Below are positions 2,437 to 29,200 of a DNA stretch of 63,167 bases, one piece after another. How positions within the stretch are numbered: the first letter of the stretch is position 1; every line of letters begins with the position of its first letter. Source of the stretch: Akkermansia muciniphila (lineage in GTDB: Bacteria; Verrucomicrobiota; Verrucomicrobiia; Limisphaerales; BJHT01). The position numbers and the translations under genes are program-made. The stretch is taken from contig CAMAUZ010000044.1 of assembly GCA_945861535.1 (NCBI GenBank), forward strand, positions 1-63,167, read 5' to 3'. The notes under the pieces were generated by a model. The model was not told the DNA's origin. It made no database searches and saw only the letters and a list, made by a program, of their open reading frames with translations.

Positions 2437-3639
2437 TCAGGGGGTCGCGGGGCGCGCGGACGTCTGGGGTTTGGGGCAGAAGAGGTCGCTGCAGGCTTCG
2501 GGGAGGTAGCGGGTTTTGGAGTCGAATTTGCGGGCGAAGGGGGCGATGGCGGAGTTGGTGAGGGCGGCGCGGAAGGCGTCGTAGGTGAGGTTTTTTCCAA
2601 TGACGGTGGTGAGGACGGGGCGGCAGCCGTCGCCGACATCGACCATGATTTTTTCGGTGGCGATGGGGTTGGCGACGGGCTGGGCTTGCTGGGTGGAGTT
2701 GGGCGGGACGGAGATGAGGTCCACCTGCGCGGAGGCGAGGGGGACGAGGGCGACGTGGGGCGGCTCGAAGACGCCGCGGAGGCCGTCGAAGAATTGGGCC
2801 ATGGGGCGGCCATCGGCGGTTTCGAAGAGGAACAACTGGACGTGGCGGTCGAGGGTGAAGCTCTGGCGGAAGGTGGCTTTGAGCGGGTAGCCGGCGTAGG
2901 GCGAGAGGTCGGGGCGAATCTCGGCGGGGCGCGTGTTGCCGAGGTAGCGGCCCATGAAGGCGGAGTATTTGGCGAGGCAGCCGCCCCATTGCTGGCCGAG
3001 GGCGACGAGGCGGAGGCGGGCGGGATCGTAGGTGAGGTGGCGGCGGCGGAATTCGGCCTTGAGGCCTTCGGTCCAGCGGCGGGCGTTGGTGGAGGTCCAC
3101 ATTTCATAGGGCGTCCATTCGCTGATCATGCCGCGCTGGTTGAAGCTGGCGGTGAGGTCGTCGGCGAGGAGGGCTTTGGTGGCGGGGCTTTTGTCGTCGG
3201 GATCGACGATGCAACGGGGGCCGAAGAGTTGGCGGGCGAGTTCGACGGTGGCGGAGGCTTCGGGTCCGCTGGTGAGGAAGCAGACGGCGGTGTCGGGCTT
3301 GGGGCCTTCCGCGGTCAGCAGTGCGCGCCATTTGGCGGTGTATTCGTTGCGCACGCCGTCGTGGTCCCAACTGCCGAGGCAGTGGATGAAGAGGTAGAGG
3401 GTGGTGATGTTTTGTTCCGCCGTGGGGGTGGGAGGAACGACAGCGGCGGCACCCGGAGCGGACGTGTCGGCGGTGGATGAAACGGCGGAAGATGGAACCG
3501 GCGACGACGCGACGGCGGTGGCGGGAGCGGCGGGAGCGGTTTGGGCGCTGAGGTGGGTGGCGGAGAAAATCAGCAGTGCGGCGAGCCAGCGCAGCAGTCC
3601 GGCGCGGGCGGGGCAGGGGAGGTGCGGTTGGTTGGGCAT
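2437..3639 (-). CDS. Exported protein of unknown function
   Basis: A 400-residue protein that I do not recognise. Residues 14-33 are a hydrophobic signal-peptide core ending in THLSAQ, followed by a Pro/Ala/Ser-rich linker to about residue 75. The rest is a compact domain with several Trp and Cys residues and no catalytic signature I can name. It is the last of three minus-strand genes for exported proteins (9082 to 2437), with a 73-bp gap to the GH28 gene, so it may be co-transcribed with it and act on the same substrate; that is inference. High GC leaves long overlapping frames on both strands, but only this frame has a signal peptide and normal protein composition. Confidence 0.6.
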   Translation of the reverse strand: MPNQPHLPCPARAGLLRWLAALLIFSATHLSAQTAPAAPATAVASSPVPSSAVSSTADTSAPGAAAVVPPTPTAEQNITTLYLFIHCLGSWDHDGVRNEYTAKWRALLTAEGPKPDTAVCFLTSGPEASATVELARQLFGPRCIVDPDDKSPATKALLADDLTASFNQRGMISEWTPYEMWTSTNARRWTEGLKAEFRRRHLTYDPARLRLVALGQQWGGCLAKYSAFMGRYLGNTRPAEIRPDLSPYAGYPLKATFRQSFTLDRHVQLFLFETADGRPMAQFFDGLRGVFEPPHVALVPLASAQVDLISVPPNSTQQAQPVANPIATEKIMVDVGDGCRPVLTTVIGKNLTYDAFRAALTNSAIAPFARKFDSKTRYLPEACSDLFCPKPQTSARPATP

Positions 3640-3712
3640 GGCGGGATTCGGGTGGAGCGATGGTTCGGAGCGGCGACGGCGAGCGCCCGGCTGGAGGTGC
3701 GGGAGGTGCCCG

Positions 3713-5272
3713 TCACGGCGTGGAGAGGATGTAGCCGCCGGGCGGGATGGTGAGGTTGGTGGTGGCGGAGATCGTGATGGACGGAGAATTGGTCACGAAG
3801 TACATGGAGGCGCCGGTGCGGTTGGTCATGTTGGGATAGCCGGCGACGACGTTGCTGATGCTCAGACCGCTGACATCGTTGAAGGCCAAGGCGGGGCGGA
3901 CATCGGGATTTTGCGGGAGGAGATTCAGGTTTTGCAGCGTGATGGCTTGCGCGTGGCGGCAGAAAAGGCCGAAGGCGGGAATCCAGCCGAACATATCGAC
4001 GCTCGGGTAGTCGGCCTCTTTCTCGGGCACGACCAATTGCGCGATGTTGGTCACGCCGAGGTGGGAGAAGCGGACATCGCCGCGGGGAATGATGGTGATG
4101 TTGCGCAGGTGGATGTTCGAGACCGTCGTCGAGGGGAGGCCGTGAATTTGAATGCCGAACTCGCGGTTGGTCGAAACGCCGGTGGCGTACACGTCCTCGA
4201 TGAGGATGTCCTGAATTTTGCCGGGAGTAAACGGCGGGCCGGCCTGGCCGACGCCGCGGTTGCCGAGGCGGATGAAGATGGGCGAGCGCACGCCCACGGA
4301 CTGGATGCGGGTGACGCGGACGTTGCGGAGGATGCCGCCATCCATGGACTGGAGCGCGATGCCGGAGTGATTGCCGAGGTCCGGGCGGTGGGGGTAGGTG
4401 CGGCAGTCGGTGTAGATGACGTTCTCGATCACGCCCACGCGGCTTTCCGTCCCAATCTTGAGGGAGTAGCTGGGGCTGGTGAGGTCGCAATTGGTGATGG
4501 TGATGTTGCTGCTGTAATTGTCGGCGGCGACGGTATCCATGTTTTTGATGGCGATCGGGTCGTCGCCCGTGGAGACGCGACAGCCCGTGATGAGGACATT
4601 TTTGGACTGACAGACGTTGATGCCATCCGTGTTGGGACCGTAGAGATCGTTGATGATGGTGACATTGCGGATGGTGACGTTGGTCGAGGTGTAGGGGGAC
4701 AAGGCCCACGAGGGCGAGTTCACAATCGTAATGCCGTCCACGACGACGTTGCTGCAACTGCGGAACTGCACGAGCGGCACGGGGGCGCTCTGGCGGCTGG
4801 AATACCAGGTCGTCGGATTGGGCACCACATTCCAGTAGTTGGAACCCTGGCCGTTGATGATGACGGGGCCGCGCATGACCACGTTGGTGACGTAGGCGGC
4901 GCGGAAGAGAAATTTCAACGGGGTGTATTCGGAATAGAGGCGCGGGCCGTCAACGAAACTTTCCTTCTCGAACAGCAGCGTGACGTTGTCTTTGAGCGAC
5001 ACCATGCTGAGGCGGTAGCGGCCCGGCGGAAACACCACGTTGCCGCCGCCTGCGGCAGTGCAGGCGTCGATGGCTTTCTGGACGGCGGTGGTGCTCCAGG
5101 TGCGGCCGGTGACGTCGGCCCCGTAGCTGAGGATGTTGAAGGGCGCGGCGGCGCGGGCGGCGGGCGCGGTGAACAGCAGGGTCGCGAGCAGCCACAGCGC
5201 GCTGAGCCGGAGCGGGTGGAGACGACGGCGGCAGTGCGGCGCGGAGGACGCGGGGGGAAGGAGGGCGTTCAT
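3713..5272 (-). CDS. Glycoside hydrolase family 28-like protein (polygalacturonase type), exported
   Basis: A 519-residue right-handed beta-helix protein with a signal peptide (cleavage near residue 42, AARAA). The start FNILSYGADVTG ... AVQKAIDAC followed by GGGNVVFPPGRY is the usual GH28/pectate-lyase opening. GH28 active-site blocks NTDG (214-217) and TGDDPIAIK (acid pair 237-238) are present. The third block, normally GHG with a catalytic His, reads YSLKIGTES, and the RIK block is not clear, so the enzyme may act on an unusual uronide or be altered. GH28 enzymes cleave galacturonan or rhamnogalacturonan outside the cytoplasm. The start codon is 18 bp from the stop codon of the large fibre-like gene upstream, which suggests an operon. 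Confidence 0.85.
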   Translation of the reverse strand: MNALLPPASSAPHCRRRLHPLRLSALWLLATLLFTAPAARAAAPFNILSYGADVTGRTWSTTAVQKAIDACTAAGGGNVVFPPGRYRLSMVSLKDNVTLLFEKESFVDGPRLYSEYTPLKFLFRAAYVTNVVMRGPVIINGQGSNYWNVVPNPTTWYSSRQSAPVPLVQFRSCSNVVVDGITIVNSPSWALSPYTSTNVTIRNVTIINDLYGPNTDGINVCQSKNVLITGCRVSTGDDPIAIKNMDTVAADNYSSNITITNCDLTSPSYSLKIGTESRVGVIENVIYTDCRTYPHRPDLGNHSGIALQSMDGGILRNVRVTRIQSVGVRSPIFIRLGNRGVGQAGPPFTPGKIQDILIEDVYATGVSTNREFGIQIHGLPSTTVSNIHLRNITIIPRGDVRFSHLGVTNIAQLVVPEKEADYPSVDMFGWIPAFGLFCRHAQAITLQNLNLLPQNPDVRPALAFNDVSGLSISNVVAGYPNMTNRTGASMYFVTNSPSITISATTNLTIPPGGYILSTP

Positions 5273-26509: not shown

Positions 26510-26825
26510 CGGGAGGGACCGTGTCGGAGCGGGCGGGAGCGAGAAGATGCCGCGTCCCCGAGCCACGGAGTGGCGGCAGACAACAGCCCACGGTGTGAGC
26601 CGTGGGATGACGACGATAAATGTCCCAGGCCCCGGCAGGGGCGAAAGAACCGTGGGCGAGTCGCGCGGCTTCTGTCGCCCCTACCGGGGCTTGGTTCCGT
26701 TACGCGCGAGGCACCCACGGCTCACGCCGTGGGCTACTCTCTTGCGCTGCTCCGCAGCTAAACAGGGCGAGGAAATCCCTCGGCCCGCAGGCCGCGTTTG
26801 TCTGATGCCGGCCCAATTGCTGAAC
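26510..26825. other. Convergent intergenic region with one inverted element
   Basis: The 316 bp lie between two convergent genes and are mostly the repeat 26583-26737. I see nothing else. Confidence 0.65.
26583..26737. repeat. GTAG inverted element, CCCACGG family
   Basis: The right end on the minus strand is GTAG + CCCACGG-CGTGAG-CCGTGGG, then GCCCCG-GTA-GGGGC. The left end is ACAG + CCCACGG-TGTGAG-CCGTGGG, then GCCCCG-GCA-GGGGC. The left tetranucleotide has lost GTAG. Confidence 0.85.
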
Positions 26826-27641
26826 TCACCGCGTTCGTTTCACCACCACGCCCACAAACCGCCAGCGCGCTTTGAAATCCGCGTGCGACTCGCGGATCAG
26901 GCCGGCCAGCGGATCACCGACCACCACGTCCGTCGCCGTCACCTCCAGCACCGTCACCCAGTGGTCCAGCGTGAAACTGAACTTCACCAGCGCCAGTGTC
27001 AGCCCGGCCGCGCGCAACTCCTCGACATTGCGAAAGGCCCGATATTCCGCCGTCAATCCGTCCGGCCCGTAGTGCTCCGTCAACGCGCGCGCCAGAATGT
27101 CCGGCGGTGTGCCCGTGGCCGTGCTGGTGTGGGCGAGGATGGCCAGTTGCCCTTCCTCGGCGGGCAATCCGAGGCGGCGCAGAGCTGTCACCGCCGAGGC
27201 CGGACCACAGTTGTAGTCGTTGCTCTGAAGGCAGATGCCGTCGCCATCGATCCGGGTTTTGAGGCCCTCGAGATGACGGCGGTTGAAGGCTGGCGCGAGG
27301 AACGGCCAGACCGCGCTGTGCATGACCCCGACGATGATGAAGACACAGACGGCGTTCCGGTCCGGTCGCCGCTGCAGCCGCGACAGCAGCGTGCTCAACA
27401 CCATCGCAATCACGAAGCCGATCACCGCGTATTGATTGCGCCCCATCATCATCCACGACAGCGGCGGCTCGAAGGACAGCGGCGGAAAACGCCGCGCCAA
27501 TCCGTACGAAATCATCAGGCCCAACGGGATGAAATAGCCAGCCAGCCACCACGGTTTCGGGCGGCGCGAGAACCATTGGCCGAGGAAAAATCCAACGGCC
27601 GCCAGCAGCGCCGCAGCGAGGGATTCAAGCCAAGGATTCAT
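26826..27641 (-). CDS. Membrane-anchored C39-type cysteine peptidase
   Basis: A 271-residue protein with three or four N-terminal membrane segments (about residues 5-23, 31-50, 70-88, 98-116) followed by a peptidase C39-like domain. ICLQSNDYNCGPASA places the oxyanion Gln139 and nucleophile Cys145; DHWVTVLEV gives His227 and VGDPLAG gives Asp243, a complete set. C39 peptidases usually form the N-terminus of bacteriocin exporters and cut double-glycine leaders. Here the domain is separate and tethered, and probably faces the periplasm. An ABC-2 transporter gene converges on it, but a shared role is only a guess. Confidence 0.85.
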   Translation of the reverse strand: MNPWLESLAAALLAAVGFFLGQWFSRRPKPWWLAGYFIPLGLMISYGLARRFPPLSFEPPLSWMMMGRNQYAVIGFVIAMVLSTLLSRLQRRPDRNAVCVFIIVGVMHSAVWPFLAPAFNRRHLEGLKTRIDGDGICLQSNDYNCGPASAVTALRRLGLPAEEGQLAILAHTSTATGTPPDILARALTEHYGPDGLTAEYRAFRNVEELRAAGLTLALVKFSFTLDHWVTVLEVTATDVVVGDPLAGLIRESHADFKARWRFVGVVVKRTR

Positions 27642-27976
27642 GCCGGGACGCTGCGCGGAGAACGGCGCGTTTCCAAATCAAAAGCCGAAAGGGCACGAGG
27701 CGCGTCCGGAGGTGTGCGAACGCGGTGGGATTTTGGGACGGGCACTCTCACGCACCGCAACCGGGTAGCGCAGACTTCCAAGTCTGCTGTATCGCGGGTT
27801 TCCAAACCCGCAGGCGGTCCGACCACCGGAAGCGCCTCGGCTTGTCGCGCACGCCCGAAACCCCGCGGCCCCTGCCGATTTGGAAATCGGCGACACAGCA
27901 GGTTTGGAAACCTGCGCTACACGGGGGAATGTGCGGACGCTCCCGTTTGAGCACGGAGGCGGCGCTCCGCTCCCGC
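27642..27976. other. Gene-free 335 bp with a double-hairpin element
   Basis: It lies between the C39 gene start and the end of bioB, both minus strand. Element 27764-27921 fills half of it; the rest shows no clear motif. Confidence 0.6.
27764..27921. repeat. GTAG double-hairpin inverted element with covarying stems
   Basis: The left half is GTAG + C + GCAGACTT-CC-AAGTCTGC, then GGGTTT-CC-AAACCC. The right half on the other strand is GTAG + C + GCAGGTTT-CC-AAACCTGC, then CCGATTT-CC-AAATCGG. Both stems differ between halves by paired changes that keep base pairing. Confidence 0.93.
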
Positions 27977-29068
27977 CTACGCCGTCACCAATTCCGCCGC
28001 GGCAGGCTTGGGCGCGCAGCCGCAGGCCGCTTCGTCCTGATCGCGGAAATCGTGGCTCTCCCAATTCGGGTCGAGGCCGAGGTCCTTGAGCATTTGCAGG
28101 TCCTGCTCGACGGACTGGTTCAACGTCGTGAGATAATTTCCCACCATCAACGCGCTGGCCCCGGCGGTGAAAATCATGCTCTGGAGATCGCGCAGATTCA
28201 CCGTGCGCCCGCCGGCGATCATGATTTCGCGGCGCGGGAGCAGCAGGCGGAAGCACGCGATGGTCTTGAGAATCTCCAGCGGCGGCAGCTTCGGATTGCT
28301 GGCGAAGGGCGTGCCGGGAATGGGATTGAGGATGTTGATCGGGACGACGTTCGCGCCGATGTCGCGCAACGACAGCGCGAGATCGCAGCGGTCCTCGCGT
28401 GTCTCGCCCATGCCGATGATGCCGCCGGAGCAGATTTTGATGCCCGCCTTTTTCAGGTAGCCGATGGTCTCGACGCGGTCCTCGTAGGTGTGCGTGGTGC
28501 AATGTTTCGGGAAAAAGCTCCGCGAACTTTCGAGGTTGTGGCCGTAGCACTCGAGGCCGGCTTCCTTGAGTCGGTCGGCCACCTTCTGGCTCTTGATGAT
28601 GCCGAGCGAGGCGTCGGGCCGGGTCTTGCCGGATTTGGCGAGATCGGCGATGCGGTCGCAGACTTCGTCGAGCATCGGGCCTTCGTTCAGCCCTTTCCAC
28701 GCGGCCACCAAACCCACCGCGGTCACGCCGTGTTGATTGGCCTCGTCGGCCGCCTGCATCACCGGCTCGGGATCGACAAAGCCGTAGCGCGGCGAGCCGG
28801 TCTGGTGAAAAGACGACTGCGCGCAGAAGCTGCAATTCTCGGAGCATCCGCCGGCCTTGGCGTTCACGATGGAGCAAAGGTGAACCTTGTTGCCCTTGAA
28901 GTGCTCGCGAATCCGGTTGGCCCACGCGAGCAAGTCGAAGATGTCCGCGCTCGCCTCCAGATGGAACAGCCACAACGCCTCGTCGCGGTTGATGCTTCCC
29001 CCCGCCAGCACGCGCGCGCCCAAGGCCGCGATGCGCTGGTGATTTGTCTCGTCAAGTGCCGGTGTCAT
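27977..29068 (-). CDS. bioB: Biotin synthase
   Basis: A 363-residue radical SAM enzyme that inserts sulfur into dethiobiotin, the last step of biotin synthesis in the cytoplasm. The [4Fe-4S] motif CSENCSFC has Cys75, Cys79 and Cys82. VHLCSIVNAKAG, YGHNLESS, THTYEDRVETI, GIIGMGE and NPIPGTP are in family order, and GGRTVNLRDLQSMIFTAGA is the C-terminal block. I chose ATG 29068; a longer frame to 29176 has no family match. Other bio genes are absent here, and no BirA or BioR operator palindrome was seen in the 160 bp upstream. The tail CGCAPKPAAAELVTA extends slightly past the usual end. Confidence 0.96.
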   Translation of the reverse strand: MTPALDETNHQRIAALGARVLAGGSINRDEALWLFHLEASADIFDLLAWANRIREHFKGNKVHLCSIVNAKAGGCSENCSFCAQSSFHQTGSPRYGFVDPEPVMQAADEANQHGVTAVGLVAAWKGLNEGPMLDEVCDRIADLAKSGKTRPDASLGIIKSQKVADRLKEAGLECYGHNLESSRSFFPKHCTTHTYEDRVETIGYLKKAGIKICSGGIIGMGETREDRCDLALSLRDIGANVVPINILNPIPGTPFASNPKLPPLEILKTIACFRLLLPRREIMIAGGRTVNLRDLQSMIFTAGASALMVGNYLTTLNQSVEQDLQMLKDLGLDPNWESHDFRDQDEAACGCAPKPAAAELVTA

Positions 29069-29200
29069 GATGGTTGACAGCGTACCGACGGCGGTTTCCG
29101 ACGCAAGCTTTTCGATCCCACTGACTGGAGCGCCGGATGCGGGAGATCCGCCCGTCCGGTTCGGAGGGAGGGACAAGGTTCAAACCCTTGTCACGGGGAT

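Follow-up and report, generated by a model that had tools for sequence, protein, structure and literature searches.

A GTAG repeat dimer with two tandem hairpins per arm, its folded shape most likely kept through recognition by a single-strand transposase

An element at positions 27765-27920 of the window (the whole stretch of DNA analysed, 63,167 nt) was found to be one copy of a small and probably transposable DNA repeat present more than 100 times. Its folded hairpin shape, carried by differing sequences, has most likely been kept through recognition by a single-strand transposase, as judged from comparisons of repeat copies and transposase genes. The element is probably a non-autonomous REPIN with GTAG tags outside and two tandem hairpins per arm, spread by a RAYT that acts on single strands and reads the folds. 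Because, at five variable stem pairs of the copies, local pairing holds and arm-to-arm pairing mostly fails, and because the dimers join unlike arms, four small hairpins, and not one cruciform, are what has been conserved.

Anatomy of the element and its copies

The element consists of two arms in inverted orientation, each of which carries, from its own GTAG inwards, a GTAGC foot, hairpin 1, GTRTC and hairpin 2. The hairpins were assigned by sequence and folding, and the features of arm B are spelled from its GTAG unless stated otherwise.

27765..27769, +, arm A GTAGC foot (GTAG tag)
27770..27787, +, arm A hairpin 1, GCAGACTT CC AAGTCTGC
27788..27793, +, arm A linker TGTATC, ending in GTATC, a five-base run similar to the GTAGC foot except for T instead of G at position 4
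27794..27811, +, arm A hairpin 2, GCGGGTTT CC AAACCCGC
27812..27873, no strand, inter-arm spacer of the long-spacer class
27874..27891, -, arm B hairpin 2, GCCGATTT CC AAATCGGC
27892..27897, -, arm B linker TGTGTC
27898..27915, -, arm B hairpin 1, GCAGGTTT CC AAACCTGC
27916..27920, -, arm B GTAGC foot, the outer end of the element (GCTAC on the + strand)

With the hairpins bracketed, arm A reads GTAGC-[GCAGACTTCCAAGTCTGC]-TGTATC-[GCGGGTTTCCAAACCCGC] and arm B reads GTAGC-[GCAGGTTTCCAAACCTGC]-TGTGTC-[GCCGATTTCCAAATCGGC]. An inverted-repeat search returned the arms as a 54-nt inverted pair, 81% complementary and 56 nt apart. The paired stems that a sequence-only reading had described in both halves are present and the anatomy at 27765-27920 was confirmed, folding as single-stranded DNA beating shuffled sequence both for single arms (z -3.0 to -4.1) and for the whole element (z -6.8). 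That reading also held that the CC loops are kept, which is right for the strand beginning with GTAG, whereas the loops of the second half read GG on the + strand. For an arm, the folding program closed a TCCA tetraloop with a 7-bp stem instead of pairing 8 bp around a 2-nt loop, and since pair 8 revealed one Watson-Crick type only across the 161 arms from genome and congener, it behaves as part of the loop. Folded as a whole, the element has a single long hairpin as its minimum-energy DNA structure, with -54.7 kcal/mol (arms -14.0 and -13.8).

Searching the 7.94-Mb draft genome with the pattern GTAGCGC-N4-TTCCAA-N4-GC resulted in 212 exact matches on many contigs and in none for the reversed control. 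A census of 1,096,729 bases (the window and parts of five contigs retrieved for the census) with a sequence-only profile, seeded with arms matching the pattern, revealed 43 arms at E<0.01. All 20 close pairs in the census were inverted with the tags outside, and their inter-arm gaps clustered at 38-39 and 56-58, with single cases of 23 and 54. Across the order, at least one exact pattern match was detected in 48 of 293 genomes and 32 of 118 genera. A 176-base query had no match in phage and plasmid collections, and an origin from either was rejected on that basis.

Further comparison of copies is based on 75 dimers, namely 30 of the host (20 from an unchosen stretch and ten from stretches picked for a pattern match) and 45 of the congener, all from stretches picked for a pattern match, where ten unpaired arms and five adjacent pairs in opposite reading were also found. 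The spacers fell into three classes of 37 (the long class), 22 and 16 dimers, with conservation of 0.75, 0.60 and 0.90, respectively, as compared to 0.94-0.98 for arms, with 0.96 in the long class, and 0.46-0.77 for flanks. The first foot of the 161 arms was GTAGC in 136, GTACC in 12 and GTGGC in four. In the congener locus L314, at about 3700-4100, two long-class REPINs stand in tandem with GGGGACAAGCTGTCCCC-like palindromes adjoining.

The window also holds two inverted Rfam matches to RF01687 (Acido-Lenti-1, called an sRNA) at 26561-26606 (-) and 26714-26759 (+). Within the host this family revealed 135 matches, 85 of them over the cut-off (150 of 2195 candidates scored), often as close inverted pairs. 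One such pair is located in L031 at 2537-2580 (+) and 2719-2764 (-), a locus where more dispersed palindromic repeats, at 1900-2800, adjoin an IS200-like gene. Read on the other strand, the copy in L346 is composed of GTAG, hairpin, linker, TAG and hairpin, and RF01687 may represent a further double-hairpin repeat with a GTAG tag and not an RNA gene.

RAYT transposases in relatives and in the host

In two other genomes of the order, RAYT genes lie between such dimers, with arms on both sides. At L161, arms at 2981 (+) and 3050 (-) precede a RAYT gene at 3150-3866, which is followed by arms at 3862 (+) and 3916 (-); its stop codon TAG is situated inside the GTAG foot of the downstream repeat (3862-3866). 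At L160, the order is arms at 3514 (+) and 3621 (-), a RAYT gene from 3694 to about 4410, and arms at 4432 (+) and 4608 (-), the last pair being interrupted. The RAYT P0001 matched NCBIfam NF047646 (REP_Tyr_transpos) with 88.1 bits at a cut-off of 80, a second relative reached 83 bits, and the best solved relative of P0001 was 4er8, TnpArep (E 1.3e-7). Throughout 19 aligned rows of the relatives' RAYTs, PNHxH and the tyrosine before xxNP were invariant. Relatives of P0001 at E<=1e-15 were present in 124 of the 293 genomes of the order, and among the best 80 of 463 relatives in named genomes the nearest P0001-type RAYTs came from metagenome bins, some titled Verrucomicrobia, which makes a verrucomicrobial host likely.

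We then looked for arms beside 88 distinct RAYTs with a motif that does not require pairing (GTRGC and YGTNYC at fixed spacing). The motif occurred within 700 nt of 20 of the 24 RAYTs with at least 54% identity to P0001, leaving four without an arm by motif, and it matched beside five of 64 more distant RAYTs, none of these with both stems paired. According to a quick tree of 73 rows with SH-aLRT support only, one clade (SH-aLRT 95) has arms in 19 of its 21 rows, a single further arm-bearing row being a chance hit, and the loop class changed three times among the rows with arms. A broader scan, for two hairpins behind GTRG, selects perfect stems and was used for presence, not for covariation; it placed arms near 42 of the 88 RAYT loci, 31 of them with arms on both sides, where shuffling predicted none. 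Thus, the double-hairpin arm extends beyond the RAYT clade of this repeat. The linker class changed three times among the 36 arm-bearing rows of that scan. Altogether, loop and linker types correspond to RAYT clade.

In the draft assembly of the host itself, no such partner was detected. None of its nine Y1 genes had the repeat within 1.5 kb, and they were rejected as cognate transposase. Three RAYT-like proteins of the host are only 37-42% identical to P0001 by local tblastn and 40-46% in a further comparison, and the draft assemblies of the host and the one congener examined revealed distant RAYTs only and none of the cognate clade, so that the host copies may be orphans, probably spread by a RAYT now lost or outside the assembly. 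A RAYT with at least 54% identity over 150 residues was present in six of 19 genomes with at least six exact pattern matches vs 15 of 274 others (Fisher p 0.001, hand tally). Repeat and RAYT are linked, yet most repeat-rich drafts are without a near RAYT.

The three RAYT-like genes of the host are each flanked by inverted repeats of their own, unlike the one studied here: a single-hairpin GTAGCTCGACATTCCAATGTCGAG repeat at L214, a GGAGCGCCGAGCATTGCTCGGC repeat at L213 and a GACACAGCCGCGCTCCG repeat at L211. The host therefore carries several repeat-transposase families.

With regard to movement, presence and absence differ between host and congener at some sites with diverged flanks. Another host REPIN is located opposite a shorter congener interval, again with diverged flanks and not a clean empty site; in this only absent-site comparison no movement was seen, and the element is presumed to transpose.

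Pairing in the stems and its explanation

Stem covariation is strong. In 61 host arms, 950 of 976 stem cells were Watson-Crick, and for host and congener together (161 arms) this applied to 2477 of 2576 cells, the remaining 99 being 33 G.T, 14 A.C and 52 other. Variation is confined to inner stem positions, in particular pairs 5 and 6 of hairpin 1 and pairs 3, 5 and 6 of hairpin 2. The arms beside RAYT genes, collected by the motif without regard to pairing, gave the same picture: among 55 distinct arms, hairpin 1 was paired in 376 of 385 cells and hairpin 2 in 365 of 371 (366 of 385 with two frame-dropped arms kept). When these RAYT-side arms were shuffled, pairing at six pairs was reached in 0 of 2000 shuffles and at two others in 3 and 43, while the rest vary too little.

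A set of 38 RAYT-side arms with 17-nt hairpins was paired in 98.5% of cells vs 84.9% when shuffled, and in only 16.7-46.4% when the partner was displaced by one, two or three columns. Changes on both sides of a pair were counted in 76 cells vs 20.9 shuffled; the count of pair types was not above shuffles (14 vs 13.3, 223/500). RNAalifold resulted in the same two helices and three invariant pairs around the first. In these sets, arms were dropped as follows: one of 62 in the host, two of 102 in the congener, two of 55 for hairpin 2 only, and one of 39 with 17-nt hairpins. Closely related RAYT loci, chosen visually on the tree as nine pairs and compared by their least different arms with at least 12 of 14 pairs, revealed 13 compensated differences, four of them from a single locus pair, vs one one-sided stem difference.

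These sets support the interpretation of the sequence-only reading, although several of its statements need rewording. It had taken the two halves of this element as proof of selection; a single comparison of that kind is insufficient on its own, and it is the genome-wide and order-wide sets that show selection. Nor is the hairpin selected rather than the sequence throughout: covariation is strong, as seen in the genome, congener and RAYT-side arm sets where the reading had named its absence in a deep alignment as decisive against it, but conservation of sequence also extends to the GTAGC foot, to the outer half of stem 1 (GC-AG) and to the loops. The differing bases in stems that stay perfect were seen as described, though the halves did not change in place: since the two arm types recur together in the genome, the congener and other families of the order, the differences between the halves have not arisen here, and compensation within the element was rejected.

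Compensation belongs to the source lineages, not to the resident copies, because the stems of two REPINs that host and congener share by position differ on one side only (read from alignments; two is a small number). Compensation in place was rejected on the same two REPINs, with the same restriction as to number.

Selection on RNA folding, with the element serving the host as a terminator, mRNA stabiliser or attenuator and its stems kept paired for that reason, appears improbable. The element is situated between two genes of the same direction, a biotin synthase-like gene with Radical_SAM and BATS domains at 27977-29176 (-) and a C39 peptidase-like gene at 26826-27641 (-), and could be transcribed. 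Moreover, G.T cells exceed A.C cells on the GTAG strand of the 161 arms (33 vs 14, p 0.008, cells not being independent), which strand-specific DNA folding predicts just as well; RAYT-side arms, however, had no G.T excess (4 vs 3). By heuristic and hence rough ORF calls, 15 of the 20 census dimers were outside ORFs, ten between tandem, two between convergent and three between divergent genes, and five inside called ORFs; compared with gaps in general (214 tandem, 84 convergent, 77 divergent), there was no excess at convergent sites, and a terminator role was rejected accordingly. Downstream of the congener biotin synthase gene (94% identical), no such element was found in roughly 370 bases, synteny being broken there. 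No Rfam family at gathering score covers the element, which argues against a known RNA family, and host RNA function does not predict that stem and loop types track transposase relationships. As to whether folded DNA or RNA is recognised, which the sequence-only reading had left undecided, the link to a transposase would favour folded single-stranded DNA.

Slightly less probable still is a purely mutational origin of the paired changes. Quasipalindrome correction, in which template switching in a palindrome copies one side onto the other, is a known mutational mechanism and would yield compensated changes, but resident copies retain mismatches (the 99 cells of 2576 mentioned above), the stem differences in the two shared REPINs are one-sided, and it would be left unexplained why loop and linker types follow the RAYT clades.

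Local and arm-to-arm pairing could be separated at the five variable pairs, where, in the 75 dimers of genome and congener, local pairing held in 726 of 750 cells vs 186 of 750 for arm-to-arm pairing, a figure lowered by choosing these pairs for variability. At all stem positions of the 30 host dimers, the respective values were 934 and 726 of 960. Each of the 75 dimers joins unlike arms with different stems, and in 72 (28 of 30 in the host, 44 of 45 in the congener) a C at pair 3 of hairpin 2 is found in exactly one arm. That the element acts as a single long hairpin or cruciform, with arm-to-arm pairing as the selected feature, is suggested by its minimum-energy fold and the 81% complementarity, but in view of these counts it is the least probable of the explanations considered; the long hairpin may form, yet paired changes do not preserve that fold.

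For the REPIN spread by a single-strand RAYT, the following course would fit these observations. The four small hairpins would fold when the DNA is single-stranded, e.g., on the lagging-strand template; a RAYT (Y1 HUH transposase) would recognise the element by its GTAG foot, its loops and its perfectly paired stems, cut, and spread it. A spreading source element would tolerate stem changes only in pairs, and inserted copies would decay one-sidedly. Hairpin 1 would guide cleavage and hairpin 2 would serve for binding or spacing, since, in the experiments on TnpAREP described in PMC8266576, position 4 of GTAG was needed for cleavage, changes at positions 3 and 4 having abolished it. Before hairpin 2, the 161 arms carry mostly GTATC (74) or GTGTC (73), with T at position 4 in 159.

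At four loci (L200, L238, L244 and L256), GTAG itself precedes hairpin 2, counting the last base of stem 1. From the sequences, we infer an origin of the arms by fusion of tandem repeats, the second foot of which would have decayed. More tentatively, and with somewhat less than even confidence, a large, mainly verrucomicrobial group of RAYTs might use composite REPs made of two GTAG-repeats fused head to tail, in which the first foot (GTAG) would guide cleavage, the second would have decayed to GTRTC or RGTT with its hairpin only holding the enzyme, and the unlike arms would be true left and right ends as in IS200/IS605. Support comes from the double-hairpin arms at 42 of 88 loci, 31 of these two-sided, from the four GTAG second feet and from the C in one arm of 72 of 75 dimers. 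If true, arms as left and right ends would explain the prevalence of REP heterodimers.

Comparison with known systems

The repeat is most similar to the GTAG REP superfamily as presented in the passages on these repeats in PMC3733652, with which it shares GTAG at one end, a short perfect palindrome, high copy number, inverted dimers with the tags outside and a RAYT nearby, as well as heterodimers and sub-families with complementary stem changes; that account also names a verrucomicrobium, O. terrae, as rich in GTAG repeats. It differs in having two stem-loops in tandem per arm where the text consulted describes one per unit, a distinction drawn on that text, so that a family listed there may overlap. 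Since the other features compared are present or open, except for RAYT linkage in the host, we regard the double-hairpin repeat as a GTAG-REP variant.

REPINs, as portrayed in part of PMC3116915, are likewise inverted REP doublets with a spacer that spread as a unit and have conserved ends and a variable spacer, and compensatory changes were noted there in a spacer hairpin. In that description, however, conserved end bases pair into one long hairpin, whereas four local hairpins and unlike ends are found here. The TnpAREP systems in the relevant parts of PMC8266576 (S. maltophilia and Marinomonas of group 3, E. coli of group 2) resemble ours in a single-strand REP hairpin with a GTAG foot and in the importance of loop bases, and for S. 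maltophilia a mismatch in the perfect stem hurts cleavage. Their substrates have one hairpin, and the E. coli enzyme needs a bulge, which is absent here.

Compared by description with the section on TnpA(Y1) subclass 2.4 in PMC6006769, the RAYTs and repeats share NHxH, FWQ and YIxxNP-like motifs, long canonical GT[AG]G REPs and a G-C-rich foot, but the 'double foot' REPs of that subclass consist of a single stem tagged at both ends, in contrast to the tandem stems found here. IS200/IS605 elements also combine a Y1 HUH enzyme with hairpins at both ends, which may differ, while the tag and inverted-dimer layout found here are REP features. In the test with NF033573, P0002 reached 20.7 bits vs a cut-off of 55 and P0001 was not listed.

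Judging from the parts of the two papers cited, GTAG REPs, heterodimers and sub-families with complementary stems (PMC3733652) as well as REPINs (PMC3116915) are known already. In the text of the open-licence literature, figures and supplements aside, GTAG REPs whose arms hold two stem-loops in tandem were not found described, and the double-hairpin arms are apparently a new variant of the GTAG REP and REPIN type. Covariation across the order distinguishes local hairpins from a cruciform and links the types of hairpin and loop to clades of the transposase, providing natural RAYT-substrate pairs for learning how folded single-stranded DNA is read. REP dimers were described in the passages of PMC3733652 as often joining unlike units 'without obvious explanation', and the element offers a direct test of why they do so.
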